A DNA stretch of 64,000 nucleotides, taken from contig CADCUI010000008.1 of NCBI GenBank assembly GCA_902805845.1, positions 1-64,000 on the forward strand, given 5' to 3'. The notes beneath the pieces are model-generated. The model was not told where the DNA came from and made no database searches. It saw only the letters and a list, made by a program, of their open reading frames with translations. Positions 16,194 through 31,134 of this stretch are shown in pieces; position 1 is the stretch's first letter; every line of letters begins with the position of its first letter. A program made the translations under genes and the position numbers. The DNA comes from an uncultured Nocardioidaceae bacterium. Lineage in GTDB: Bacteria > Actinomycetota > Actinomycetes > Propionibacteriales > Nocardioidaceae.

Positions 16194-16595
16194 AGGCCGA
16201 CCTCGAGGCGGCCGCACGGCCGCCTGGACCGGGGTGGGAGGTGGCGCCGCCACTGCGCGTGGGGGTGGGTGGTGGCGCCACCGCCGGTCGTCCGGTGGGC
16301 TCAGAGCGTGCGCTCATACGAGCTCGAACACGTCCTCGGTGCTGATCACTCGCTGATCACTCGCCGGCCGGGGATGGTGGCCGCCAGCGCATTGGGCATC
16401 GTCGTCTTGCCGACTTGCGTGCAGGCGGGGACAACCCACCACGTTGGGCGTGCATATCTGGAGCCCATGTGCGGATGGCCCGTTGAGTGTCGACGACCTA
16501 GCCAAGGCGGTGAGTCGGGCTAGATCCCGCTACGTTCGTCACGGCGCCGGGGCCGTGCGCACTAGCCCGGCACCGCGCGTAAAGAGGAGCTCCAG
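16194..16595. other. 402-bp non-coding gap with a stem-loop and short direct repeat
   Basis: Contains AGGCGGCC-GCAC-GGCCGCCT (16206-16225), a compact stem just after the aminotransferase stop without a T-run; a second GC-rich dyad around gtggcgcc/ggcgccac (about 16240-16283); and a perfect 11-bp direct repeat gctgatcactc at 16341-16362. No convincing gene was found; the 63-aa minus ORF here has no recognisable features. It marks the left boundary of the accessory island. Confidence 0.6.
16206..16225 (+). terminator. Possible terminator stem after aminotransferase
   Basis: Perfect 8-bp arms AGGCGGCC/GGCCGCCT with a 4-nt loop, 13 nt after the stop codon. No uridine tract, as is common in high-GC actinobacteria. 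Confidence 0.4.
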
Positions 16596-17804
16596 ATGAA
16601 CCAACAGCAGCGCACGAGCCGCGGCGGGACCAGACGGCGGTTCACCGCTGCCGGACTCCTGATCGGGGGCGTGGCCGGGGGCGTGTGCCTCGTGGCTGTT
16701 TCTTGCGCTGCGATTGGCACCGGTTCCCCCGTAGCCGAGTCCGGCGTGGCGGCGGTGCTCCTGCGCTTCGAGGGGCCCACGTACTCCGCGGCCACCAGCA
16801 GGGGACTCCTGCTGCGGTCAGGTGAGGACGAGGTCACGTTGCCTCAGGCAAGCGATGGGCGGTGGTTGCCCGACGGCACCGCTCTTGCCGACGCTAGCCA
16901 CCGCAGCATCAACCTTCAGGTGCTCGACCCGAACCAGGAGACGTTGACGGAAACCGTCGAGATCCCCGGCTTCGATCGACCCGGACGTTCGGTGACCCAG
17001 ATCAACGTTCTGGATCGCCAGGCGCGGCCGGCGGTGCTGACCGCATACTCACTGAACCTCGAGCAGCTGTGGCGGCTCCGGCTGCCCGAGACCGACAACC
17101 CCGACGCGACCTCGTACAACGAACTGGAGCGCAATTACTACGGTGTCGCTCCGACCATCGACGGCGTTACCTACGTGATGTGGCACGACAGCAGCGAGTG
17201 GTACGAGGACGGCGACTACGGCGTCGCCCGCGTCCAGAACGGCGACGTGACCAACGTGTTGCTCAACGAACGGATAGTTGCCCTGTATCTGTCGGCCGAC
17301 GGCGCCGCGCTCCTGGCGCTGCGTCAGCGCCAGGGCGAACCGTGCGGCGGGTGCGTCGTGGAGCAAGAGATCGTCGAGATCGACCCGGGTACCGGCGCGA
17401 TCGCCGGCCAGTACGGCATGCCCGATGATTACACCGAGGGCTGGCGGGTCGAGGCGATCGACAAGGTCGATGGCCGGGTGGCGGTCCGGTTCACCGAGAA
17501 CGACTGGGGTGATGAGGCAGACGAAGCAGAGATCGTCGAGCCGGTCACGATCCAGCGGGGCACCTGGATGTTCGATGGGGCCTGGTCGATGATCGAGGGC
17601 AGCGACTCGGAAATCACCTGGTGGCAAGGCGAGGACCGGGTCATTGCGCGGCCGCAGCCCGGTGAGGGGCGCCACCGTGACGGGTTCGCCCTGTTCTGGG
17701 TCCACGACGGCATCCAGAGCACGTTGCCAGGTGATTTGGAACGCAGTTTCGGTAACCGCTACGTCACCGGTGAGGTGGCCGGTCAGCTGCTGCCCCCAGG
17801 GTGA
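16596..17804 (+). CDS. Secreted or membrane-anchored protein of unknown function
   Basis: 402 aa with a good Shine-Dalgarno (AGAGGAG) before the ATG. A basic N-terminus (RGGTRRRF) precedes a hydrophobic segment (about 18-38) ending AVSCA, so it is either a signal-anchor or an atypical lipoprotein; the residue three before Cys is Ala, which is poor for a lipobox. The rest has repeated short beta-strand-like segments around DG and WY motifs, compatible with a beta-propeller, and a CGGC motif near residue 250. Base composition is less GC-biased than in the housekeeping genes. No family recognised. Confidence 0.65.
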   Translation: MNQQQRTSRGGTRRRFTAAGLLIGGVAGGVCLVAVSCAAIGTGSPVAESGVAAVLLRFEGPTYSAATSRGLLLRSGEDEVTLPQASDGRWLPDGTALADASHRSINLQVLDPNQETLTETVEIPGFDRPGRSVTQINVLDRQARPAVLTAYSLNLEQLWRLRLPETDNPDATSYNELERNYYGVAPTIDGVTYVMWHDSSEWYEDGDYGVARVQNGDVTNVLLNERIVALYLSADGAALLALRQRQGEPCGGCVVEQEIVEIDPGTGAIAGQYGMPDDYTEGWRVEAIDKVDGRVAVRFTENDWGDEADEAEIVEPVTIQRGTWMFDGAWSMIEGSDSEITWWQGEDRVIARPQPGEGRHRDGFALFWVHDGIQSTLPGDLERSFGNRYVTGEVAGQLLPPG

Positions 17805-17968
17805 ACGCATCTCGGACAGCGCACGCCCATCATCGGCATGACCGGACGTTCGCCGGTGAAGGTGTCTAAGTAGTGGGCATGCCGGCTTGCGCGCCGCTCG
17901 AGACCAGGATGTTCGACCCAGAGACGACAGCGGCTCGCAAGGACTGCGCCGCGCCGACGCCGAGCACT

Positions 17969-18868
17969 TCAGCCCTGGCGTTCCCCGTCTCCGGTACCTG
18001 AGGTGACCTCGCGCCGCTCGGCGTCGACGAGCTTGGCCATGGCCACGACGTCTTGGCCACCCCATCCCTCGGTGGCCGCGGACATCAGCTGGGCCAGCGC
18101 CGCGGAACCCACCGGTGTCGGGACCTTCCACACCGCAGCGGAGCCGACCGCCAGGCGGACGTCCTTGGCGGCGAGGTCGACGCCGAAGCGTGACGTCCAG
18201 TCGCAGTCGATCATCCACGGCAGCCGGAGATCGGACTGGAAGGAGGCAGCTCCGGTGTCGGCGAGCGCCTCAGCGAACGCGGCGTCGTCGATGCCGGCCC
18301 GGTTGGCGATCGCCAACCCTTCGGCGAGCACGGCCACGTTGGCCATGCCCACGAAGTTGGAGACCAGCTTGAACGTCGTCGCCGCCTCCACGGTGTCGAA
18401 GTGGTAGGTCTTCTCTCCCATCCAGTCCAGCACCGGCTTGATCCGGACCAGGGCTTTCACGTCACCACCGACGAACAGGGGGATGGTGCCCTTCTCGGCG
18501 TGGGCCGGAGTCTTGCCGAGCGGACAGGCCACGAACGGCACGTCGGCCTCAGCACACCGATCCGCCACGGCGCGGGCCGTCTGCGGGTCGATCGTCGAGA
18601 TGTCCATGACGACCGTGTCGGGTCCGACCTTGTCCAAGACCGCGGAGACGGTGGAGACCACCAGCTCCGGGGTAGGCAGGCTGGTCAGGACCAGATCAGC
18701 GTTGGCCACGGCGGACGGCAACGAGTCCGCGGCCACGGCGCCGGCCGTGACGCACCGTTCCATGGCGTCGGCCGAGGGGTCCTGCACGGTGACGTCGAAC
18801 TCCCCGCCGGCCAGCCGGCGCGCGACGGCGCCGCCCATGTTGCCGACACCGATACAGGTGATCCGCAT
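17969..18868 (-). CDS. Beta-hydroxyacid dehydrogenase (3-hydroxyisobutyrate dehydrogenase family)
   Basis: 299 aa from ATG 18868, chosen because AAGGAG is 4 nt upstream. NAD(P)-binding CIGVGNMGGAVARRL, catalytic-lysine region TFKLVSNFVGMAN, and LAAKDVRLA near the C-terminus are present. The substrate loop is CPLGKTPAHAEKGT instead of the usual VSGG pattern. It resembles the GRT-type loop I recall in sulfolactaldehyde reductase YihU, where a basic residue contacts an acidic group. It would oxidise a hydroxyacid or reduce a semialdehyde. Last gene of the minus-strand island operon. Confidence 0.87.
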   Translation of the reverse strand: MRITCIGVGNMGGAVARRLAGGEFDVTVQDPSADAMERCVTAGAVAADSLPSAVANADLVLTSLPTPELVVSTVSAVLDKVGPDTVVMDISTIDPQTARAVADRCAEADVPFVACPLGKTPAHAEKGTIPLFVGGDVKALVRIKPVLDWMGEKTYHFDTVEAATTFKLVSNFVGMANVAVLAEGLAIANRAGIDDAAFAEALADTGAASFQSDLRLPWMIDCDWTSRFGVDLAAKDVRLAVGSAAVWKVPTPVGSAALAQLMSAATEGWGGQDVVAMAKLVDAERREVTSGTGDGERQG

Positions 18869-18920
18869 GGCGCTCCTTCGAATGGACGATGGACTTACTG
18901 TTGGTGTCGCGCCGACATGG

Positions 18921-20375
18921 TCATGCGCGCCGAGCAGGGATGACGGCGAGACGACCGTCGTCGTCGTCGGCGTCTGCGACATCCACGTCGTAGCCGATGG
19001 GTTCCCACTTGATCAACAGCAACGTGAGCAGCCCGAGCGCGGGAGCGATGGCGACCACGTAGAACACGCCGGTGCCGAGATCGGCGGCCAGGATCGGGAA
19101 CAGCAGCAGCGAGATCGTCGAGCCGATCCGCAGCACTGCCTGGCCGAAGCCTGACCCGGTCCCCCGCAGGTACGTCGGGTAGGACAGCGTGGCCATCGTC
19201 ATGCCTTGAGCACCCGGGCCGTAGCTGTGGAAGAACACGAACATGCCCAGCAGTGCGCCGACGACGAGCCCCATGAATGTCCCCTCGGGGGCACCGATCA
19301 GGCCCAGCAGCAGGAGCACCACGAGGCACACCGCGAAGCCCGACATCGCCAGCCCGCGTGACCCGAGTCGATTGGTCAGGCGTACGCCGAGGAAACCGCC
19401 GGTGACACCGAAGGCGAAGTTGAAGAGCAACGGCACGGTGATCGTCGACAGCCGACCCTGTGCGAGGAAGGTCCCGACGATGAAGGGCAGGAAGAATCCG
19501 ACCGCGTAGTACTGGATGGACTGGCACATGCCGACCAGCCCGGCGGCGATCGTCCGGGCGCGGTAGCGAGGACGGAACAGGGTGACGAACGACCGCATCG
19601 ACGCAGGTGCGCGCTTCTCGGGGTAGACCAGCTCGGACTCTGGTGCGAGCACGGCGTCAGCGCCGTACGACTTGTTCAAGATGTCCACCGCACGCCGCAG
19701 GTCGCCCTGGTTGGCCGCCCACGAGGCTGACTCGTCCATGTACTTGGTGCGCACCGCGAGCACGATGAGCGCAGGCACCGCCCCGAACCCCACCGCGTAG
19801 CGCCACAGGTCGGGGTGCATCGACTCCGGGAGCAGGAAGTACAGGGGCAGGAGCACCAAAAAGCTGCTGCCGGTGGCGGCGTACCACATCGGCTGCCACA
19901 GCGTCACTCGGCCGCCCTTGCCCTTGAGCGCCGAGAACTCCGCGAGGAACGCGAGCGCCACCGGGAAGTCGAGGCCGATGCCGAAACCCATCAGGAACCG
20001 GAACAGGGTGAGGAGCTCCACGTTGGGGGCCAGCGCACAGCCGATCGCCGCGACGACGAAGAACAGCATGTCCGCCATGAACATCCGGTATCGGCCGATC
20101 CGGTCGACCAGGTAGCCACCGAAGATGGCGCCGATGAACGCGCCCACCATGATGGACGCGCCCACCACGCCTGCCGCGAACGAGCTCAGGCCGAACTCGG
20201 TGGTGATGTCGGCGAGCCCGAACGCCAGCGACGTGAAGTCGTAGGCGTCGATGAAGATTCCGCCGAGCGCGATGAGGACGATCGCCTTCTCGTTACCGCC
20301 CGAGACCCGACCCGAGTTGATCGCATCGACGACATCACCGGCTTTCCGGATGACCAGGGTGTCCGTGCCGCTCAC
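18921..20375 (-). CDS. MFS metabolite:proton symporter
   Basis: 484 aa with about 12 membrane segments and the MFS loop signature GGYLVDRIGRYRMF between helices 2 and 3. The overall pattern resembles the metabolite:H+ (sugar/aromatic-acid) symporters. GTG start with GAGGAG about 10 nt upstream; the Shine-Dalgarno overlaps the stop of the preceding aldehyde dehydrogenase gene. The C-terminus ends in an acidic cytoplasmic tail (ADADDDDGR). Likely imports the island substrate or exports a product. Confidence 0.88.
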   Translation of the reverse strand: MSGTDTLVIRKAGDVVDAINSGRVSGGNEKAIVLIALGGIFIDAYDFTSLAFGLADITTEFGLSSFAAGVVGASIMVGAFIGAIFGGYLVDRIGRYRMFMADMLFFVVAAIGCALAPNVELLTLFRFLMGFGIGLDFPVALAFLAEFSALKGKGGRVTLWQPMWYAATGSSFLVLLPLYFLLPESMHPDLWRYAVGFGAVPALIVLAVRTKYMDESASWAANQGDLRRAVDILNKSYGADAVLAPESELVYPEKRAPASMRSFVTLFRPRYRARTIAAGLVGMCQSIQYYAVGFFLPFIVGTFLAQGRLSTITVPLLFNFAFGVTGGFLGVRLTNRLGSRGLAMSGFAVCLVVLLLLGLIGAPEGTFMGLVVGALLGMFVFFHSYGPGAQGMTMATLSYPTYLRGTGSGFGQAVLRIGSTISLLLFPILAADLGTGVFYVVAIAPALGLLTLLLIKWEPIGYDVDVADADDDDGRLAVIPARRA

Positions 20376-20389
20376 GATCGATCAGCTCC

Positions 20390-21817
20390 TCATATCCCTA
20401 CGGCCAGGTAGCGCGTCTGCTGGAACTCCTCGAGCCCCGTGACACCGCCCTCGCGACCGATGCCGGACTGCTTGGTGCCCCCCATGGGGGCGAAGGCCAC
20501 GCTGGGCAGGGGGTCGTTGACCCCGATGATGCCGGTGTCGAGCGCGTCCGCCACGCGCCAGACCCGTGCCTGGTCACGGGTGTAGACGTAGCCGGCCAGC
20601 CCCAGCTCGGTCGCGTTCGCCATCCGCATCGCCTCCTGCTCGTCCGAGAAGGTGAAGATGCCGGCCGCCGGGCCGAAGACCTCGGTCCTGGCAAGGCCGC
20701 TGTCGGCCGGCACGTCGGTGAGAAGGGCCGGTTCGCAGAAGGTGCCCCCGGCCGGCAGGTCCCGCTCCCGAGTCAGGCGCTTGGCCCCCTTGGCCACCGC
20801 CTCGGACACCAGGTCCGTCACGGCGTCGACCCGGCTCGCGTCGATGCATGGGCCAAGGTCGGGCGGATCGTCCACGGCGCCGGGCCCGATCCTCATCGCG
20901 TCCACCTCCGCCGTCAACCGCTGAGTGAACTCGTCCACCACCGACTGCTGGACGAGGAACCGGTTGGCGGCGATGCAGGACTGGCCGGTGTTGCGGAACT
21001 TGGCCAGCATCGCTCCCTCGACGGCGCGGTCGAGGTCGGCATCCTCGAAGACGAGGAACGGCGCGTTCCCGCCGAGCTCGAGCAGAGGTCGAACGACGCG
21101 CTCCGCGGCCTGGCGCATCACCAGCCGCCCGACCTCGGTGGAACCCGTGAAGGTCACCACGCGCACCGCTGGGTGCGAGAGGTAGGCCTCGGTCACCTCG
21201 CCGGCCGGGCCGTGGACCAGGTTGACGACTCCGTCGGGAACTCCTGCGTCGACCAGGCACCGGATCATCTGGGTCGCCGCCATCGGCGCCTTCTCCGAGA
21301 CCCGTGCCACCACGGTGCATCCCGCCGCCAGCGCCGGGGCGAGCTTGCGGGCCTGGATCGAGCAGGGGAAGTTCCAGGGCGTGAGGGAGGCAACCACTCC
21401 GGCCGGACGGCGCACGCTCAGGTGCCGACGGCCCGGGGCCTCGTGCGGGTGAACGGCACCGTCGGGACGGCGGGCCTCCTCGGCGAACCACCGGAAGTAC
21501 TCCGCCGAGAAGCGGACCTCTGCAACCGCCTCGGGAAGCCGCTTGCCGGCCTCGCGGGCCAAGAGCAGCCCCAGCTCATCGGCGCGCTCGTCGATCAGGT
21601 CCGCCGCCGCCAGCAACAGGCGGGAGCGCGACCGCGCGGGGAGCCCGCCCCAGCTCTCCGCGGCCTCCGCAGCTGCGTCCGCCGCGGCCCTGGCCTCGGT
21701 AGCGGAACCGGAGGCCACTGTTCCCACCTCCGTGCCGTCCGCGGGGTCGTGCACGGGCGCCGCCTCCGCGCCGTCGATCCACTGTCCACCGATCAGGTGG
21801 GGAGCATGGGAAGACAT
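20390..21817 (-). CDS. NAD(P)-dependent aldehyde dehydrogenase, succinate-semialdehyde type
   Basis: 475 aa from ATG 21817 (MSSHAPHLIGGQW), preceded by AGAGGG. TPWNFPCSIQARKLAPALAAG, TGSTEVGR, catalytic Glu in LELGGNAPF and catalytic Cys in TGQSCIAANR resemble GabD-like enzymes. The usual cofactor-binding KPSE motif reads ARVSEKAP, so Lys is replaced by Arg, which may change NAD/NADP preference. Probably oxidises a semialdehyde released in the island pathway. Only 14 nt separate it from the MFS gene. Confidence 0.88.
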   Translation of the reverse strand: MSSHAPHLIGGQWIDGAEAAPVHDPADGTEVGTVASGSATEARAAADAAAEAAESWGGLPARSRSRLLLAAADLIDERADELGLLLAREAGKRLPEAVAEVRFSAEYFRWFAEEARRPDGAVHPHEAPGRRHLSVRRPAGVVASLTPWNFPCSIQARKLAPALAAGCTVVARVSEKAPMAATQMIRCLVDAGVPDGVVNLVHGPAGEVTEAYLSHPAVRVVTFTGSTEVGRLVMRQAAERVVRPLLELGGNAPFLVFEDADLDRAVEGAMLAKFRNTGQSCIAANRFLVQQSVVDEFTQRLTAEVDAMRIGPGAVDDPPDLGPCIDASRVDAVTDLVSEAVAKGAKRLTRERDLPAGGTFCEPALLTDVPADSGLARTEVFGPAAGIFTFSDEQEAMRMANATELGLAGYVYTRDQARVWRVADALDTGIIGVNDPLPSVAFAPMGGTKQSGIGREGGVTGLEEFQQTRYLAVGI

Positions 21818-21916
21818 GGAGCCGCCCTCTCGTGACGAATCGGTCCGAGTGTCCCTGGCCATGTGACCGTCCCCACTACTGGCAGGCTGAACCATCCCGG
21901 TTCCAGGTTTCCTCGA

Positions 21917-22720
21917 TCAGAGAAAGAACCGGCGCACCTGGTCGCCGATCTCACCTGAGGACGCCCCGACGGCGGTGCCCCTGTCGATCGCTTCCACCCC
22001 GTCGAGGCTCATGAACGTGCCGCCTGCCTCCGTGATGATCACCGCGACTGCTGCCAGGTCGTAGGTCCTCGCATCGCAATCGACCATGGCGTCGGCTCTC
22101 CCGGTCGCGACCATGGCGTAGCCGTACGCGTCACCCCAGGTCCGAAGATTCGCACCGCTGTCCAGCAGCCGGCTGATGGCGTCGGGGGGCCAGGAGCGAA
22201 GCTCGCTCGTCATGACGTACATGCCGTCCGCCGGAACCGTTTCGCGCACCCTGACCCTGGAGCGCCCACGGAAGCAGCCAACGCCGGCCGCCGCGCTTAC
22301 CGTCTCCCCCAGAGCGGGGAAATGCGCAACGCCTACCCGCTGCACTCCCTCGAACTCAAGTCCCACCAAGGTGGAGTACAACGGCACGTCGGAGACGTAC
22401 GCACGCGTTCCGTCGATCGGGTCGACGTGCCAGGTCCACCCGTTGCCGCCTGCCTGGGCGGGGAGCTCCTCCCCTTGGATGCCGTCATCGGGGAACTCCT
22501 CTTTGATCCTGGCGTGGAGGTAGCGCTCGATCGCAGCATCGGTCTCCGTCACAGGCGTGCCGTCGGACTTGCGTGAGGAAGCAACCTCGCCCCTGGCCCG
22601 ATGACCGGTGATGATGGAGTCCGCCCCCCGCGCGAGCTCCATGGCGAACTGTCGAAGTTCGTCGAGGTCACGGCCGCCGACCTTCACGCCTTCCGGACCC
22701 ACGTCGGGCTGCTGCTTCAC
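21917..22720 (-). CDS. Inositol monophosphatase-family phosphatase (HisN-like)
   Basis: 267 aa from a GTG at 22720 that overlaps the upstream kinase stop (GTGA) and has TTGAGG 5 nt before it; the longer track ORF is a shadow. Mg-binding motifs IQGEE, DPIDGT and YDLAAVAVIITEAGG are present, and RTWGDAYGYAMVATGRADA is characteristic of the histidinol-phosphatase branch of the family. In an operon with two kinases it could remove phosphate from a pathway intermediate rather than act in histidine synthesis. Confidence 0.87.
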   Translation of the reverse strand: MKQQPDVGPEGVKVGGRDLDELRQFAMELARGADSIITGHRARGEVASSRKSDGTPVTETDAAIERYLHARIKEEFPDDGIQGEELPAQAGGNGWTWHVDPIDGTRAYVSDVPLYSTLVGLEFEGVQRVGVAHFPALGETVSAAAGVGCFRGRSRVRVRETVPADGMYVMTSELRSWPPDAISRLLDSGANLRTWGDAYGYAMVATGRADAMVDCDARTYDLAAVAVIITEAGGTFMSLDGVEAIDRGTAVGASSGEIGDQVRRFFL

Positions 22721-23673
22721 AGCTGCCTCAACCACCCTTCCCAGCGACTGTCGTGCATCACGGCACGGGCCCGGTGGTACTTCCACATGCCGTACTTCCT
22801 GAAGTCGAAGTCGATGCTCGACTGCTGCTCCTGCACCAGGGCCCAAGATGCCCACTTGACGTCCGCGATCGCCTTGCACAGGTAGGTCCGCGCAACATGG
22901 TCGGCGGAGGCACTGCCGAAGAACTCCTCGATGAGGCCCAGCTCGATCTCCTCGTCGAAGAACATCTCCCCCATCCAAAGAGCAAGGTCGTAGTGGGCAA
23001 GGTTGTTCGAGGAGTACTCGAAGTCGATCAGCTTGACGTCTCGGTCGCTCTCACGAAGCATGAAGTTGGCGGCCAAGCCGTCGTTGAAGCAGGGCACTGT
23101 GTCGAACCCACCTGCTTCGAAGGCGCGCTTGGCCCGTTCGTACTGTCGACTGAGGAAGTGGAAGTCAGGCGGGACCGGGCAGTCCTCGTCCGCCAGTTGC
23201 GCGAAGTGTTCCTCGACCATGTCGAAGATGGTCTTGCTCTGGGGCAGCGGAGCCTGCCCGTGGTACGCGCGAATGCCGGCGAGTGCGCCTGAGCGGACCT
23301 CGGGGTCGACGAATTCGTCGTTCGAGGCCGGCCGGTAGCCAGCGAGCCAGTCGAAGACCTCCACGCCGGTGTCGGGGAACCCCCAGCGCTGCGCGGGCCC
23401 ACAGCCGGCCGCCGCCGCTGTCCTGGAGGCCTCGACGGAGTTGCGCCGGTCAATGAACCTCTCCGTGCCGCGACCCGGGATCTTGACGAAGTACTCCTCC
23501 CCGGCGGGTTCGACACGGATGTGCCAGTTCGTGTTCGTGATGCCGCCTGTCACAGGAGCGAAGGAGAGCTCATGGTCGCGCAGCTCCTCGACCCGCCCCA
23601 AGGCGTCGGCGAGCTGCCGCTCATCAGCGGTGGACGCTGCCCGTAGCGGTTTCAGCTCAGGTTGCGTAGCCAC
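22717..23673 (-). CDS. Choline kinase-like phosphotransferase 1
   Basis: 318 aa starting at a GTG that overlaps the preceding gene by 22 nt. ATP-binding region ITNTNWHIRVEPAGEEYFVKIPG, catalytic loop PCFNDGLAANFML and metal site LIDFEYSSNNLAHYDLALW match choline/ethanolamine kinases, except that the His before Asn-Asp is Phe. Its C-terminus (RKYGMWKYHRAR) parallels that of the neighbouring phosphotransferase 2, so the two are paralogues. Probable substrate is a small amino-alcohol; unknown. Confidence 0.82.
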   Translation of the reverse strand: MATQPELKPLRAASTADERQLADALGRVEELRDHELSFAPVTGGITNTNWHIRVEPAGEEYFVKIPGRGTERFIDRRNSVEASRTAAAAGCGPAQRWGFPDTGVEVFDWLAGYRPASNDEFVDPEVRSGALAGIRAYHGQAPLPQSKTIFDMVEEHFAQLADEDCPVPPDFHFLSRQYERAKRAFEAGGFDTVPCFNDGLAANFMLRESDRDVKLIDFEYSSNNLAHYDLALWMGEMFFDEEIELGLIEEFFGSASADHVARTYLCKAIADVKWASWALVQEQQSSIDFDFRKYGMWKYHRARAVMHDSRWEGWLRQL

Positions 23674-24578
23674 AGCTCGAACCTCCGGTCTTGGATGAGC
23701 CAGCGGGCCTTCAAGAACCGCCAGCCTCCGTACTTGGCGTACTCAAGGCCTCGACTCCTGCTGCGGCGCGCATACACCTGCGCCCGCAGCGCGGCAGCGA
23801 CGTCATCGGCAGCGGCGTAGACGTGCAGGAGCGCAAGAGTCACAGGGTCGGCTGGTTGGTCGAGCATCTCCAGCGCAGCGAGCCACTCGTCTTCGAGCAT
23901 GAAAGCGTCGGAGAGCAGCACCGCCAGGTCGCACAGCGGGTCCGCATTGCCGGCGCGGTCGAAGTCGCACAACCGCACGTCGGAGTCGGTGAAGAGCACG
24001 TTGCTCGCGATCGTGTCGCCGTGGCAAGGAACCGCCGGTCGATCCATGAGCGCGACTGCTTCACCTGCCAGCCGGACCGCATCGACGACGAAGTCGATGT
24101 CGGCGGGCAGCAGAGCACCTTCTCGAACGGCGACGCCGCGCAACCTCTCCACCTCCTCGAACAGGCTGGTGGAGAACGTCAACGGGGCTGACCTGTGGAG
24201 AGCTCGTTGGGCTGCGAAGACGCGCGTGAAAAGTCGGGGGTCGGAGAGGTCCGCCATCGTCGCGGTCCTCCAGGGCGTGCGCAGAGCCTCGAAGACGACC
24301 GTATCCGAGTCGGCATCAGCCGCGACCACTCGTGGAGCCACTCCGAGCCGCCCTGCATGCTGGGCCGCCTCCACGGACCGACCAAAGGAGATGAGGTCCG
24401 ACTTCTCCTCGTGCAGCGTGTGGACGAAGACCTCACCGGACCGCTCAGTGGTCATGATCGCGCTGTCGTGCTCGACCCCCCAGAAAGCGGGACTGGCCAC
24501 CGGCGAGACGACCGAGGTGACGGAGCTGGACTCAAGTCCTGCTGATCGCGCCAGCGAACCGGACACGCGCGGAATCAC
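23652..24578 (-). CDS. Choline kinase/APH-like phosphotransferase 2
   Basis: 308 aa, GTG start overlapping the hydrolase stop (GTGA). The catalytic loop is canonical (CHGDTIASNVLF), followed by the metal-binding Asp in LCDFDRAGNADPLCDLAVLL. The C-terminus (YAKYGGWRFLKARWLIQDRRFELWLRN) resembles phosphotransferase 1. The N-terminal ATP-binding region is shorter and less clear. The pair may act on successive intermediates or as a heteromer. Confidence 0.8.
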   Translation of the reverse strand: MIPRVSGSLARSAGLESSSVTSVVSPVASPAFWGVEHDSAIMTTERSGEVFVHTLHEEKSDLISFGRSVEAAQHAGRLGVAPRVVAADADSDTVVFEALRTPWRTATMADLSDPRLFTRVFAAQRALHRSAPLTFSTSLFEEVERLRGVAVREGALLPADIDFVVDAVRLAGEAVALMDRPAVPCHGDTIASNVLFTDSDVRLCDFDRAGNADPLCDLAVLLSDAFMLEDEWLAALEMLDQPADPVTLALLHVYAAADDVAAALRAQVYARRSRSRGLEYAKYGGWRFLKARWLIQDRRFELWLRNLS

Positions 24579-25855
24579 CCTTGCACGTCCCGCTGGTCGA
24601 GCGCCCCGCCCGCTGCCCGGCGCAACGCTTCCGTGAGGACCAGGACACCTGTCTGCAGATCCGCGTCACTGGTGTGCTCGCGCTCGTTGTGAGCGATTCC
24701 GCCGGTGCTCGGGAGGAACATGAGCGCCGCGGGGACCCCGTGCTGTTGCAGAGCGAGGCAGTCATGGCCGGCGACCGTGGGTAGGTCGATCGTCTGCTCC
24801 CCGACGGCACTCGCGGCGTCACGGATGACCTGTTGGCCCTGGTCATTCAGAGGGATTCGCTGTCGGTCCGAGAAGCGCTCGACCTGGATCTCCACGCCGG
24901 TCTTCTCGGCGATCTCAGCGATCGTGAGCCGCACCCGGTCGCGGACCGCCGCGAGCACGGTCTCGTCGTCGCTGCGAGCGTCACACTGGAGCGTCACCTG
25001 GCTAGGAACGACGTTGGGCGAGTTGGGCTGGACGTCGATCCATGCCGCTGCTGTTCGGAGCGTCCCCTCCGGGAAGTCCTCACACAGGGCTCGATGAGCG
25101 ACGATGAACATGGCGGCGGCGAGCAAAGCGTCCTTACGGCTGCGCATCGGCCATCCGCCGGTGTGCGCCTGCTCGCCATGGAAGATCAGTCGCCACTTCA
25201 GTGTCGACCAGCAGTGCGTGACGACGCCTACGGCCACTCCCGCCTGTTCCAGCGCGACGCCCTGCTCGGCGTGCAGCTCCAGGACTGCCGCGGCTGGGCG
25301 TGGGGGTTCGTCGGTCCCGCGGAAGCCAACGGATTCCAGCGCGTCAGCGAGCCGGACCCCGAACCGGTCCCTCGCAGCGAGGCCCTCCTCGAGCGGAAGC
25401 AGGCCGCAGTACACCGAGCTGCCGAGAAGGGCTGGCTGAAAGCGTGCGCCCTCCTCGTTGCACCACGAGACGACTGCGACGTTGTGGCGCGGAGTGAGGT
25501 GCCCCGCCTCCACCTCCCGCCGGACGACGGCGCCGGCCACCGCGGCGCACACGACGCCGGATATCCCGTCGAACCGCCCAGCGCAGGGCTGCGAGTCGAG
25601 GTGCGAGCCGACAAGCACGTACGGTGCGCCCGGCGTGTGCTCCCAGACACCGAACATGTTTCCGATCGCGTCGACGCGAACCTCGAACCCACGAGCACTG
25701 AGCCACTCCGCGATCACTGTCCTGGACCGCGTGTGATCCTCGGTAGCCTCCTGACGGTCGATCCCGCCACCTGCCGTGGCCCCGATCGCGTCCAGCTCCC
25801 GGTGAAGCCGGATCGCTTCCTCCAGGTCCCCTGCTGTGGGTGAGCTCACCTGCAT
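24575..25855 (-). CDS. M20-family amidohydrolase (N-carbamoyl amino acid hydrolase/allantoate amidohydrolase type)
   Basis: 426 aa. Metal-binding pattern GSHLDSQPCAGRFDG, then CNEEGARFQP, ELHAEQG, the dimerisation domain with HTGGWPM, and the late GHDCLALQQHGVP are typical of the hydantoinase/carbamoylase branch. These dinuclear enzymes hydrolyse N-carbamoyl or ureido groups. ATG 25855 lies directly behind GGGAAGGG; a GTG two codons later has better spacing, so the start is uncertain by 6 nt. First gene of a seven-gene minus-strand operon. Confidence 0.88.
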   Translation of the reverse strand: MQVSSPTAGDLEEAIRLHRELDAIGATAGGGIDRQEATEDHTRSRTVIAEWLSARGFEVRVDAIGNMFGVWEHTPGAPYVLVGSHLDSQPCAGRFDGISGVVCAAVAGAVVRREVEAGHLTPRHNVAVVSWCNEEGARFQPALLGSSVYCGLLPLEEGLAARDRFGVRLADALESVGFRGTDEPPRPAAAVLELHAEQGVALEQAGVAVGVVTHCWSTLKWRLIFHGEQAHTGGWPMRSRKDALLAAAMFIVAHRALCEDFPEGTLRTAAAWIDVQPNSPNVVPSQVTLQCDARSDDETVLAAVRDRVRLTIAEIAEKTGVEIQVERFSDRQRIPLNDQGQQVIRDAASAVGEQTIDLPTVAGHDCLALQQHGVPAALMFLPSTGGIAHNEREHTSDADLQTGVLVLTEALRRAAGGALDQRDVQG

Positions 25856-26045
25856 CCCTTCCCTCGTCGTGCCACGTCGTCACACTCCTGCCCGGTTCAC
25901 TCTTCCTCGCAGCGAGACTGGTGACCGGTTCACCCTGCGGCGCAGAACCGAAGTTGTACAGCGGCGACGGGGGCAGTTCCGGCAAGGGTCAAGCGACTGA
26001 CCCGCGCTGCTCCCCTCGCTCCTGTTGGCGGCTCAGGAGCGCCAC

Positions 26046-26084
26046 CGGCGCCATGGTGCCGAGCGACGTCGGCACCATGCGCCG
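26046..26084. promoter_or_regulatory. Inverted repeat, candidate operator
   Basis: CGGCGCCATGGTGCCGA and TCGGCACCATGCGCCG form a near-perfect dyad (one extra C in the left arm) around a 6-nt centre. Position in a divergent intergenic region suggests a regulator site; an RNA hairpin is the alternative. Confidence 0.45.
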
Positions 26085-26187
26085 GCGGAGCCTCATCCCA
26101 GCGCGAGAACGTCCCGCCACTCCTGTCGCCGCGGTGGCACGAAGTCTCGGCTCCTGCGACGGACGCTGTCAACGACTCAGTCGCCGC

Positions 26188-26212
26188 GGTCCAATTTGTG
26201 GTCCAAATGGTC
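26188..26212. promoter_or_regulatory. GGTCCAA direct repeats, candidate regulator site
   Basis: GGTCCAA occurs twice with a 12-bp period and a third partial GGTC follows. The pair CCAATTTG/CAAATGG also forms a short dyad. About 150 nt upstream of the dimethylformamidase small-subunit start. Confidence 0.35.
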
Positions 26213-26358
26213 TGGAGGGACCTTGTGCCCTGGCCCATTCAGTGCCAGCATCACGGCATTGTGCGGCCTGGGTCACACCCCTCTTTAAGTCTGTGAACCG
26301 GTCGAGCTGGCTGTGATTCCGCAATGCGGGGTGCACAGCGACACGAGGAGGCAAACGC

Positions 26359-26664
26359 GTGACCAGCCATCAGACCCCGCCGCGCAGTGTCGCCGAAGAG
26401 TTCAGGGCACAACCGCTGGGCCATCACAGCGCTGAGTTGCAACGAGTGCTGACACTCTTCCGAGGCACACCCATGGAAGGGAAGTACGTCCTCGTCTGCG
26501 CGGAACCACACCAGACCTGGAAGCTCGGGAGGCTTCCCGGGGTCCGGGGAAAGCCCGTCCAGGTGTTCGACGACGTCGTGTTCCACGACCGCGCGGAAGC
26601 GGAGTGGGAGATCTTCAAGCGCCGCTGGCACGAGCACTTCGGTGAGTCACTGGACGACGAGTGA
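26359..26664 (+). CDS. N,N-dimethylformamidase-like small (alpha) subunit
   Basis: 101 aa, GTG start with GAGGAGG 7 nt upstream. The sequence AQPLGHHSAELQRVLTLFR, then GKYVLV, an aromatic/Trp segment and the end FKRRWHEHFG line up with the known small subunit of N,N-dimethylformamidase (about 132 aa), lacking roughly its first 35 residues. The gene sits directly before the large-subunit gene, as in characterised enzymes. The comparison is from memory of the family, not from a search. Confidence 0.8.
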   Translation: MTSHQTPPRSVAEEFRAQPLGHHSAELQRVLTLFRGTPMEGKYVLVCAEPHQTWKLGRLPGVRGKPVQVFDDVVFHDRAEAEWEIFKRRWHEHFGESLDDE

Positions 26665-26719
26665 GCGCTCGCCCCCCGCTACAAGACCCCCCATACCGCC
26701 ATACACCATAGGACTGAGC

Positions 26720-28996
26720 ATGCCGAAGCGAATCCTCGGATACTGCGACGAGATCAGCGTCGTGCCTGGTGGCCGTCTGAACGTCATGGTGAGCTGCTAC
26801 GACGGACTGGACTCCTACTCCCACGAGCTCGTCCGCCTGATCCATGGCGACCTCAACCCCGCGGGGCCGGGGTTCAAGTCCGAGCAGGTGCGCTCCGTCG
26901 CTTCAGCCCAGCACGACGGCCGCAAGCAGGAGACGTATGCCGGCAGCTACGCCGTCGTACCGCTCATGGACAGTGTCCAGCTCTCACGCGCCTTCACCGT
27001 GCAGGCAGTCGTGTGGCCCACCACCCCTGACAAGGGACGACAGGCGCTCGTCAGCCGCGTCGCAGCAGACGGCTCACGCGGATTCGTGCTGGGTATCGGC
27101 GACGACGGTTGCCTCTTCATCGAGCTCAACGGCAAGGGCTCCTCGAGCACGATCACCTCGGGCAAACCTCTGGTCGCTCGGCACTGGTACTCCGTCGCGG
27201 CCCGATTCGACTCCGACGGCGGCGACGTGACCTTGGTCCAGTCGCCGTTCGTGGACCTTGGTGGCGAGGATGCAGCCATCGCCCACCAGTCGGGGGTGTC
27301 TTTCGAGGACGCTGACGGGCCTCTTCTCTTCGCCGGCCAGAACGCCGGGGAGCACAACGGTGCTGTTGTCGCAGACTGCCACTTCAACGGGAAGATCGAG
27401 CGTCCGCGACTGAGCTCCGGGGCACTTTCGGACGTAGAGCTCGTCCGACTCGGCGAAGTCACACCTTCGCTGACGGACAGCCGAGTAGTCGGTGCGTGGG
27501 ACTTCAGCCAGAAGGTGAGTGGACTCGAGATCGTCGACGTTTCTCCCAACGACCACCACGGCCACCTCGTGAACCTGCCCACAAGGGCCATGAAGGGCGT
27601 GAACTGGACCGGCGAGTGCATGTCGTGGTCAAGCAAGCCGGAGCAGTACGGTGCGATCCATTTCCATGACGACGACCTGTACGACGCGGGCTGGCGCATC
27701 GACTTCTCCGTCGACGTCCCGGCGGACCTGAAGTCCGGCGTCTACGCGGTCCATCTCCTCGGTGAGGACGCGGAGGACTACGTCCCTTTCATCGTTCGGC
27801 CCTCGCCAGGCGCTGCGACCGCGGACATCGTGCTGGTGATGCCGACGACCAGCTATCTTGCCTATGCCAACGAGCACATGCCTACGGATGCGCCGCTTGC
27901 CCAGCTCTTGACCGACCAGGTGCTCCCCCTCCAGGAGGAGGACATGTTCCTGGCCGAGCACCGGGAGCTCGGTGGGTCCACCTACGACACGCACTCGGAC
28001 GGTAGCGGGATCTGTTACTCGTCCCGTCTGCGGCCGGTCCTGAACATGCGCCCCAAGTACGCCAACTGGCTGGGTGGCAGCGGGTCGGCCCTGTGGCAGT
28101 TCAACGCAGACCTTCACATCACCGACTGGCTTGAAGCCAAGGGGTTCACCTTCGATGTGATCACCGACGAGGACCTGCATCGGGATGGCGCTACCGCCCT
28201 CGCCCCGTATCGGGCGGCGCTGACCGGCACGCATCCGGAGTACACCTCGGAGCGCATGCGCGATGCCTACGCCGCGCACCTGGCGCGTGGTGGCCGCCTG
28301 ATGTACCTGGGTGGGAACGGCTTCTACTGGCGTACTTCCTACAGCGATGAGCTGCCGGGCGTCATCGAGGTCCGCAAAGGTGAGGGAGGGATCCGGGCCT
28401 GGGCCGCGGAGCCGGGCGAGTACTACAACTCGTTCACCGGTGAGTACAGCGGGCTCTGGCGTCGCTCTGGGCGTCCGCCGCAGCAGCTCGTCGGCGTCGG
28501 TTTCGTCGCCCAGGGGTTCGACGTCTCCTCCCACTACGTGAGGAGGGACGGCAGCCGCCATCCGCGAGCCGAGTTCATCTTCGAGGGGATCGCGGACGAC
28601 GAGCCCATCGGCGACTTCGGGCTCGTCGGAGGCGGCGCCGCGGGACTCGAGCTCGACCGCGCGGACGCGTTGCTGGGCACGCCGCCGCACAGCCTGGTGC
28701 TCGCCTCCTCGGAGGGACACACGGACGTGTACATGGTGGTCCTGGAGGAGATCCTCATCAACTCACCGGGGCTCACCGGGAGCCAGAATCCCTTGGTGAG
28801 CTCTGACCTGGTGTTCTTCGAGACGCCGTCCGGAGGAGCAGTCTTCTCGACGGGCTCGATCGCCTACTCCGGCAGCCTGTCGCACAACGACTACGACAAC
28901 AACGTGTCGAAGCTGACCGAGAACGTCCTCAACCGATTCGCAAGCCCTGAACCGTTCACCTTCCCGGGGATGGATTCCTGGCCCGGGCCCACATGA
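26720..28996 (+). CDS. N,N-dimethylformamidase-like large (beta) subunit
   Basis: 758 aa from ATG 26720 (MPKRILGYCDE), preceded by AGGA; known beta subunits are about 760 aa. An N-terminal immunoglobulin-like part (VVPGGRLNVMVSCYDG) leads to a LamG-like jelly-roll (about 80-310), then a large amidohydrolase domain with TTSYLAYANEHM, GGSTYDTHSDGSG and TGTHPEYTS. In the characterised Paracoccus enzyme two Tyr and a Glu, with a nearby His, hold a mononuclear iron. The Tyr residues here and HPE fit those positions. The enzyme hydrolyses N-substituted amides to amine and acid; the true substrate here is unknown. Confidence 0.85.
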   Translation: MPKRILGYCDEISVVPGGRLNVMVSCYDGLDSYSHELVRLIHGDLNPAGPGFKSEQVRSVASAQHDGRKQETYAGSYAVVPLMDSVQLSRAFTVQAVVWPTTPDKGRQALVSRVAADGSRGFVLGIGDDGCLFIELNGKGSSSTITSGKPLVARHWYSVAARFDSDGGDVTLVQSPFVDLGGEDAAIAHQSGVSFEDADGPLLFAGQNAGEHNGAVVADCHFNGKIERPRLSSGALSDVELVRLGEVTPSLTDSRVVGAWDFSQKVSGLEIVDVSPNDHHGHLVNLPTRAMKGVNWTGECMSWSSKPEQYGAIHFHDDDLYDAGWRIDFSVDVPADLKSGVYAVHLLGEDAEDYVPFIVRPSPGAATADIVLVMPTTSYLAYANEHMPTDAPLAQLLTDQVLPLQEEDMFLAEHRELGGSTYDTHSDGSGICYSSRLRPVLNMRPKYANWLGGSGSALWQFNADLHITDWLEAKGFTFDVITDEDLHRDGATALAPYRAALTGTHPEYTSERMRDAYAAHLARGGRLMYLGGNGFYWRTSYSDELPGVIEVRKGEGGIRAWAAEPGEYYNSFTGEYSGLWRRSGRPPQQLVGVGFVAQGFDVSSHYVRRDGSRHPRAEFIFEGIADDEPIGDFGLVGGGAAGLELDRADALLGTPPHSLVLASSEGHTDVYMVVLEEILINSPGLTGSQNPLVSSDLVFFETPSGGAVFSTGSIAYSGSLSHNDYDNNVSKLTENVLNRFASPEPFTFPGMDSWPGPT

Positions 28997-29034
28997 GCAC
29001 GCACGCAGGCGGCTCTTCGCAGTGAAGGAGAATC

Positions 29035-29382
29035 ATGTCTGGGACTAGTCCGCCGGGCGAGGAATTCGAACCACCCCGGCCAGCACCTCCGGTCCGGCAA
29101 CCTGACAGCCCGATACACCGACGTGTGAGAGGTATGTCCGAGCGCACGAAGAACGTCATCTTCGGATCTTGGTACCTCTTGCTCGTCCTCATGGTGACGT
29201 GCCCTCCGCTCTACCTGGCGTTCAGCGGCGGCACCCCCGTCATCATCGGGCTCCCCTTGTCCGTGTTCTACATGGTGCTCAACGGCGCGCTGTCCATCCT
29301 CATGGTGTGGGCGTTGTGGATCGTCGAGTCCATCAGAGGAGAGCACGAGCTCTTCCACGACCCTGAAGCCAAGGCGGTGTGA
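29035..29382 (+). CDS. Small two-helix membrane protein, symporter partner (DUF3311-like)
   Basis: 115 aa with AAGGAG 4 nt before the ATG. A Pro-rich cytoplasmic N-terminus (about 1-40) precedes two membrane segments (FGSWYLLLVLMVTCPPLYLAF and LSVFYMVLNGALSILMVWAL). Such small proteins typically accompany sodium:solute symporters, as YhdT does PanF. Its stop overlaps the GTG start of the symporter gene (GTGA), supporting a two-component carrier. Confidence 0.72.
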   Translation: MSGTSPPGEEFEPPRPAPPVRQPDSPIHRRVRGMSERTKNVIFGSWYLLLVLMVTCPPLYLAFSGGTPVIIGLPLSVFYMVLNGALSILMVWALWIVESIRGEHELFHDPEAKAV

Positions 29383-30905
29383 GCATGGGCCAGGAAACGA
29401 CCATCGTGGTCGGCATGAACGTCCTCTTCTTCGCACTCATCATCTTCATCCTGTACCGCTCCTACCAGAAGGAGCACACGTTCACCGAGTACGCCGTGGG
29501 CGGGCGCTCGTTCGGGCCCTGGTACATCGCCATGTCCTACGTGAACTCCTGGTTCCCAGGCACCATGTTCATCTCGTTCCTCGGGCTGGGCGTCGCAGCC
29601 GGGGTGGTCGGTCTCTACGTCCTCAGCTACAGCCTCATCGGTGTCACGACCATGTACTACATGGCCACCAGGGCCTGGAACTGGGGACAGGCGTTCAACC
29701 TCCGGACTCAGCCGGACATGCTCGGGCTCCGCTTCGGAAGTCCGACGGTCAAGGTGCTCGCGAGCGTGATCGGTGTGGTTTCTCTCTTCCCCTGGGTCAT
29801 CTTGTCGATGCAGTCGCTCGGTGTGCTGTTCGACTTCATGACCTACCAGCAGCTCGGCACGACCGCGTCGCTGATCCTCGGCGTCGGCGTCATCGTGGTG
29901 AGGCAGTACTGGACTGTCCGCATGGGAATGCGGGGGCTGGTGATCACCGACCTCTTCCAGGGATTCGTCGCCTACATCGTCTGTTCGGTCATGATCGTGG
30001 TGCTGATGTCCGTCTTCTTCGACGGGCTGACCGCAATCCGCTCCCTCAATGAGTCGATGTGGAGACTCCCAGGAGATGGCGGCACGTACGGCATCTGGTA
30101 CTTCAGCGCCATCACGTTCACCGGCATCGTAGGCAGCCTGTGCTGGCCGACCAGCTACCAGCGGATCTACACGGCGAGCAGCGTGCGCAACGTCAAGCTG
30201 GGAACGCTCCTGGCGATGCCGATCATCGGTGTCTTCGCCACGCTTCTGCTGTTCGTCTCCTTCTCGATGGCCACGCTCCCCGATGTGGCGGCCAGCCCCC
30301 AGAACGGATGGTTCATCACCGCCATCGACGCGGGCGGCCCCTGGCTCCTCGGCCTGGCCTGCATGATCGTGTTCGCGGCTGCCATGGGATGGATCGACGG
30401 CTGCATCCAGGTAAGTGGAACGCAACTGTCGAACGACATCATCGGTAACTTCAAGGAGCTGTCGGACAAGCAGCTGACGGCGATCGCAAAGGCCAGCATG
30501 GTGGGGTTCCTCGTCCTCGGCGCGGTCGTGGCGTACGTCGCCTACGACGAGCCGAAGCTCGTGAACCTCGCGATCATCTCCTACCAAGGAGTCGTGCAGC
30601 TGGCGGTCCCCCTCTTCGGCGGACTGTTCTGGCGGCGGGGGACTCGGGAGGGGGCCATCGTCGGGATGATCGTCGGTTTCGTGCTCGCTCTTATCTTGAC
30701 CGCGATCTATCCCGACAACATCCCCGGCCTGGGTGGTCTCACGGCCGGCATGCCTGCACTGGCGGTCAACCTGCTCCTCTTCCTCGGGCTCTCTGTCCTC
30801 AGGCCGCAGTCGGCCGAGGAGCGGGCGCGCGTGGACGAGCTGTTCCTGAAGGGGGAGCGGTCCCTGCGGAAGGTTCCTGCTGCACCGTCTGGAGCGCTCC
30901 AGTAG
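29379..30905 (+). CDS. Sodium:solute symporter family transporter
   Basis: 508 aa (506 if ATG 29385 is used) with about 13 membrane helices. Typical SSS features are EYAVGGRSFGPWYIAMSYVNSWFPGTMF at the first helices, TQPDMLGLRFGS, and LCWPTSYQRIYTASSVRNVKLG. Likely imports the island substrate with sodium. Last gene of alpha-beta-small protein-symporter; a strong hairpin follows at 30974. Confidence 0.9.
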   Translation: MSMGQETTIVVGMNVLFFALIIFILYRSYQKEHTFTEYAVGGRSFGPWYIAMSYVNSWFPGTMFISFLGLGVAAGVVGLYVLSYSLIGVTTMYYMATRAWNWGQAFNLRTQPDMLGLRFGSPTVKVLASVIGVVSLFPWVILSMQSLGVLFDFMTYQQLGTTASLILGVGVIVVRQYWTVRMGMRGLVITDLFQGFVAYIVCSVMIVVLMSVFFDGLTAIRSLNESMWRLPGDGGTYGIWYFSAITFTGIVGSLCWPTSYQRIYTASSVRNVKLGTLLAMPIIGVFATLLLFVSFSMATLPDVAASPQNGWFITAIDAGGPWLLGLACMIVFAAAMGWIDGCIQVSGTQLSNDIIGNFKELSDKQLTAIAKASMVGFLVLGAVVAYVAYDEPKLVNLAIISYQGVVQLAVPLFGGLFWRRGTREGAIVGMIVGFVLALILTAIYPDNIPGLGGLTAGMPALAVNLLLFLGLSVLRPQSAEERARVDELFLKGERSLRKVPAAPSGALQ

Positions 30906-30973
30906 CCAGCGGTCGACTAGCCGTAGAGAGCCGGCGGTCATGCCGTCGGGGGCCTGCTCCGACCTGCCGGAGA

Positions 30974-31011
30974 GCTGGGGCGGCGGGTCACTTCTGACCT
31001 GCCGCCCCAGC
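30974..31011. terminator. Stem-loop terminator between island and polyamine importer operon
   Basis: 17-bp arms with one mismatch (GCTGGGGCGGCGGGTCA/TGACCTGCCGCCCCAGC) and a 4-nt loop, in the space between convergent genes. No T-run; symmetric, so it may stop transcription from both sides. The rest of the 229-bp gap holds nothing recognisable. Confidence 0.7.
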
Positions 31012-31134
31012 GACACCGTCCACGGGCCCTCCGGTTGAGGCGCCTTCAACGCTGATCGTGATCGGCAGGCATCGACAGACGCGCGGCCGCGACCTCACCG
31101 GCGACGATCCGCGAGGGCCGGCAGGCGGTGCGGC

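Follow-up and report, generated by a model that had tools for sequence, protein, structure and literature searches.

An apparently intact iron amidase gene pair of the dimethylformamidase superfamily, with a short small subunit, on an inserted island beside a kinase/M20 module in an uncultured Nocardioidaceae bacterium

The window, as we call the whole 64,000-nucleotide stretch of DNA analyzed here, carries on its plus strand a gene pair encoding a small DmfA1-like alpha subunit of 101 amino acids with a short N terminus (26359..26664) and a large, catalytic DmfA2-like beta subunit of 758 amino acids (26720..28996). The initial annotation had described an alpha/beta pair in this order, and both open reading frames were recovered with these positions and sizes. 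The alpha frame starts with GTG and has a perfect AGGAGG just upstream, while the beta frame follows after a gap of 55 bp and starts with ATG at 26720, behind an AGGA-type ribosome site. As this ATG also fits the homologues, an alternative GTG start at 26642 (784 amino acids) was set aside. The beta subunit matched Pfam DMFA2_C (E 2.4e-101), plus Laminin_G_3, and its residues 5 to 746 matched PDB entry 6lvb_A, the large subunit of the Paracoccus sp. strain DMF dimethylformamidase (DMFase; E 5.5e-176). Its layout comprises an Ig-like domain, a pentraxin/laminin-G domain, and a ThuA-like alpha/beta domain with the Fe site (layout after PMC7686228). No Pfam or NCBIfam family was assigned to alpha, and its sequence match to the small subunit 6lvb_B was weak (E 0.037). 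With an iterated profile, relatives of alpha, Paracoccus DmfA1 and its Methylobacterium DM1 counterpart among them, were found next to most of the DMFase-like large genes. A small-subunit gene homologous to DmfA1 is thus located directly upstream of beta, as in true N,N-dimethylformamidase (EC 3.5.1.56). The same genome also encodes a distant second homologue (C37), which is 28% identical over part of the sequence.

AlphaFold models of both subunits were of high confidence, with pLDDT values of 90.5 for beta and 90.2 for alpha. An overlay on the Paracoccus enzyme had been proposed as a check of the initial annotation; in Foldseek, the beta model fits 6lvb_A with a TM score of 0.94 and an rmsd of 2.1, and the aligned ligating Tyr and Glu positions are occupied. 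The beta model also matched N-acetyl-(R)-beta-phenylalanine acylase (8huy; TM 0.88). For the alpha model, DMFase small subunits were the only Foldseek matches below E 0.01 (6lvb_B, E 3e-5, TM 0.74, rmsd 1.6); the next match had an E value of 0.37. In gene order and in both folds, the pair therefore resembles the Paracoccus sp. strain DMF enzyme and DmfA1/DmfA2 of P. aminophilus pAMI2.

In the Paracoccus DMFase, Fe is ligated by Tyr399, Tyr440, and Glu521, and the H519A, N547A, E657A, Y440A, and E521A variants are all inactive (PMC7686228). The aligned ligand columns of the window protein hold Tyr382 (=Tyr399, in the motif TTSYLAYAN), Tyr422 (=Tyr440, in STYDTHSD), and Glu507 (=Glu521). The further columns needed for activity hold His505 (=His519, in THPEY together with Glu507), Asn533 (=Asn547), and Glu644 (=Glu657). 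The alignment thus bears out the intact two-Tyr, one-Glu center with a nearby His that had been noted earlier. All six columns are invariant across 67 homologues, apart from position 533, which is Asn or Asp, and a single unresolved letter in column 644, and the same catalytic residues are present in acylase 8huy, which acts on a different substrate. Because the residues are nearly invariant in homologues that include an acylase, the site denotes an iron amidase and not specifically a dimethylformamidase. By its domains, Fe ligands, and His/Asn/Glu residues, the pair is a member of the DMFA2_C-type iron amidase superfamily, for which Fe(III) binding is predicted.

The pair is located on an island of approximately 14.9 kb (16206..31134), inserted between a class-III aminotransferase gene and a PotABCD-type transporter and delimited by breaks in congener homology and by composition. 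Homology to congeners G001, G002, and G004 ends at about 16.2 kb and restarts at about 31.13 kb. In three congeners the flanking genes are adjacent, with 3.0 to 3.2 kb from the aminotransferase to the binding protein, and the island is absent from the equivalent site in four congeners, G003 included. Third-position GC is 0.72 to 0.89 in the island genes versus 0.93 to 0.97 in the flanking aminotransferase and ABC genes. The adjacency of the flanks in congeners and the deviating third-position GC place the pair on an acquired island, whereas the DNA around it, as recognized from sequence starts, is a core chromosomal region. No direct repeats were found at the island ends, where the one 11-bp inverted match is not meaningful, and no promoters or terminators were found by consensus. 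In the fourth congener, G003 (L097 and L074), a different insert of 8.9 kb occupies the same aminotransferase/ABC site, and two divergent pairs that group with true DMFases are present elsewhere in its genome.

Neither the island nor the module surrounding the pair was mentioned in the initial annotation. Downstream of beta, on the same strand, are genes for a small membrane protein (29035..29382), which is 43% identical over 65 amino acids to a small open reading frame preceding the symporter in Pseudomonas oryzihabitans and looks like a partner gene of the symporter, and for a sodium:solute symporter itself (29379..30905; Pfam SSF), 49 to 55% identical to the symporters of the module loci described below. 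The gap between beta and the membrane-protein gene is 38 bp, and the latter overlaps the symporter start by 4 bp; cotranscription of the symporter with the pair is likely. The pair diverges from a set of minus-strand genes, which encode an M20 Zn-dependent hydrolase of the allantoate amidohydrolase/carbamoylase subfamily (24575..25855; 42 to 47% identical to the M20 proteins of module loci L108, L110, and L113), an APH-family kinase (23652..24578), a choline-kinase-family kinase (22717..23673; 46 to 50% identical to module kinases), and a HisN/inositol-monophosphatase-like phosphatase with an uncertain start (21917..22690). The APH kinase and the phosphatase were assigned by family match and module comparison. 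Further along the minus strand of the island are genes for a succinate-semialdehyde dehydrogenase-like aldehyde dehydrogenase (20390..21895) and an MFS transporter (18921..20375), both assigned by family match, and for a 3-hydroxyisobutyrate-dehydrogenase-like NAD enzyme (17969..18982), assigned from its sequence.

In our main tree of 66 sequences, with which an earlier tree agrees, the window beta subunit falls within a 22-row clade (99% SH-aLRT) whose members are mostly proteobacterial and which also contains 8huy, while the characterized DMFases group with actinobacterial members in a different clade. Its closest full-length relatives, at 55% identity, come from sampled alphaproteobacterial genomes. 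Homologues were present in 62 of 386 such genomes versus 19 of 395 genomes of the window's own class. The alphaproteobacterial DMFase-like pairs (L137 to L141 and others; 49 to 55% identical) belong to the same clade and have short alphas, but they are accompanied by methylglutamate-synthase-like genes or Pot-type or Liv-type ABC genes and not by the kinase module.

The name dimethylformamidase given in the initial annotation is not upheld, as the residues on which it relied are shared by an acylase and by all homologues in the comparison, and the window protein stands apart from the true enzymes in the tree. A genuine DMFase, releasing formate and an amine from DMF or similar small formamides, would be consistent with 42% identity to the Paracoccus enzyme over 733 positions (42 to 43% for the Paracoccus DMFases together), with the retained catalytic residues, and with the shared gene order and folds. 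However, forcing the window protein into the DMFase clade cost 103 log units (AU p 2.25e-6, long branches removed). Furthermore, Phe693, a gate residue contributed by the neighboring large subunit in Paracoccus DMFase, corresponds to Ile680 in a variable loop that is of low confidence in the model. The genome also encodes no HODM-type dimethylamine demethylase (PF11927), although other dimethylamine routes are possible, and the neighbors of the pair, unlike those of the Paracoccus enzymes, form a kinase/M20 module. Clade, gate residue, neighbors, and the lack of an HODM-type demethylase together disfavor DMF, an industrial solvent introduced in 1893 (PMC7686228), and we consider this function unlikely.

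To place these neighbors, 11 module loci were compared, from Pantoea sp. At-9b, P. oryzihabitans, Agrobacterium radiobacter, Acidisoma, Sinorhizobium RAC02, two sampled alphaproteobacteria, and four sampled actinobacteria. The APH kinase, choline kinase, and M20 genes recur in varying order (L116 has no M20 gene), and several loci also contain the membrane protein-symporter (TM-SSS) genes and a HisN or HAD phosphatase. In Pantoea and P. oryzihabitans, a small open reading frame and the symporter gene directly follow the kinases, and the window proteins are 49 to 51% (symporter) and 44 to 47% (M20) identical to those of these two loci. Nothing on this kinase/M20/amidase module was found in the literature. 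Its phosphatase is of the HisN type in one of L108 and L110 and of the unrelated HAD histidinol-phosphatase type in the other, possibly two folds for one step. At L118 (4527-11825), the module, which includes a urea-transporter-family gene, has a third-position GC of 0.48 to 0.56 in a genome near 0.85 to 0.9, and it looks mobile.

An amidase-signature amidase (PF01425) is encoded within about 12 kb in 8 of the 11 module loci (L108, L110, and L113 to L118), including those of Pantoea, P. oryzihabitans, A. radiobacter, and the four sampled actinobacteria. As the other three (L109, L142, and L143) have no local amidase, the slot is not obligatory. The module amidase likewise hydrolyzes amides, and its setting of M20, APH, choline kinase, and, in some loci, TM-SSS genes is like that of the window pair, but its fold and catalytic family are unrelated. 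No amidase-signature amidase is encoded on the window island. GatA (576 bits; cutoff, 481) is the only PF01425 member of the genome, although the assembly, at 96% completeness, may lack another amidase. A module without its amidase here, and a pair directly preceding the membrane-protein and symporter genes, suggest from this one locus that the pair does the amidase's job. Replacement of the amidase-signature amidase of this conserved, undescribed module by a DMFase-type iron amidase, through non-orthologous displacement, is thus a tentative proposal, at close to even odds.

Several observations count against a functional link. The association of pair and module was seen at a single locus, and no second genome joining them was found among 395 and 386 sampled genomes; likewise, the two transcription units are divergent, with no promoter recognized. 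No kinases were found at the other DMFase-like loci examined, the genomes that encode 14 further DMFase homologues gave few and weak kinase matches, and no conserved neighborhood was found around DMFase homologues, whose neighbors vary. The pair could therefore be a working amidase that is merely an independent passenger beside the module, as the unique association and the three module loci without a local amidase would allow. However, only short gaps separate it from the TM-SSS genes of the module immediately downstream, and all of these genes share one insertion of similar composition, so that we regard an independent passenger as rather improbable.

A function as an N-acyl amino acid acylase, similar to that of N-acetyl-(R)-beta-phenylalanine acylase (8huy, 8i59, and 8i5a), would be in keeping with membership of the same 99% clade, with 40.8% identity, and with the shared large-subunit fold and Fe-site residues; aminotransferase and D-amino-acid dehydrogenase genes also adjoin some clade members. 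This function appears doubtful at best, since 8huy is a long branch of unsure placement, its PDB entries list one chain type and no small subunit whereas the window has one, and no beta-amino-acid genes were recognized within the island. No paper tying this acylase to DMFase was found in the literature.

The initial annotation had also pointed out that alpha lacks about 35 N-terminal residues. Relative to Paracoccus, this is real: 13 residues precede the shared Glu (Glu14) in the window alpha, compared with 46 in DmfA1 of Paracoccus and Methylobacterium, making it shorter than Paracoccus alpha by about 33 residues. It is, however, no peculiarity of this pair, as clade members have 11 to 29 residues at this position and total alpha lengths of 96 to 112 amino acids are usual; by sequence comparison, the shortness is a trait of the clade, and a truncated gene was ruled out. 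The N-terminal helix of Paracoccus alpha wedges between the large subunits, and beta without alpha is inactive (PMC7686228). The first helix of the window alpha model spans residues 9 to 17 only; removal of the wedging helix may well mean that assembly differs from that in Paracoccus. A complex left inactive or degenerate by the missing helix, as the Paracoccus findings could suggest, is nevertheless highly improbable, as short alphas are standard across the clade, the frames are open with all catalytic residues kept, and in one relative a short alpha is joined to beta in a single reading frame. That fusion (L005:7635-10181, PAZH01000017.1; 849 amino acids) could be natural or an assembly error. 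In one subclade (L009, L011, L016, L018, L026, L031, L035, L036, and L083), a second, diverged alpha-like gene directly follows beta.

The genes that adjoin other members of the family suggest that the products are generally amines. Amine oxidase genes occur next to some members, and a D-amino-acid dehydrogenase with an aminotransferase next to others. At L075 (G022), a DMFase-like pair lies between urea-type ABC transporter and urease-like genes, as recognized from sequence. Near close relatives of the window pair (L137 and L139), a glutamine-amidotransferase/GXGXG/glutamate-synthase-like set resembles methylglutamate synthase, hinting at methylamine as a product.

Overall, we infer, with a probability of roughly 60%, that the pair encodes an intact Fe(III) amidohydrolase of the DMFase superfamily, in a short-alpha clade apart from the DMFases, which most likely serves the catabolic module and whose natural substrate is unlikely to be DMF. 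Family tree and neighboring genes suggest cleavage of some other, natural amide. This amide would be taken up by the symporter and small membrane protein. By analogy with Paracoccus, Fe(III) coordinated by Tyr382, Tyr422, and Glu507 would act as the Lewis acid, Glu644 would activate water, Asn533 would stabilize the oxyanion, and His505 would be required. Hydrolysis by the pair, in place of the amidase-signature amidase of most relatives, would yield an acid and an amine, and further processing would fall to the M20 hydrolase, both kinases, and the HisN-like phosphatase.

The long N-terminal helix on alpha in the solved enzyme is, as the clade shows, not a general feature. Few natural substrates are known for the DMFase family, and little can be read about them from the conserved iron site. 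A member inside a recognizable catabolic module offers a handle on them, as the substrate of the module would predict the substrate here, and displacement of the module amidase, if true, would provide the DMFase enzyme family with a natural, non-solvent substrate.
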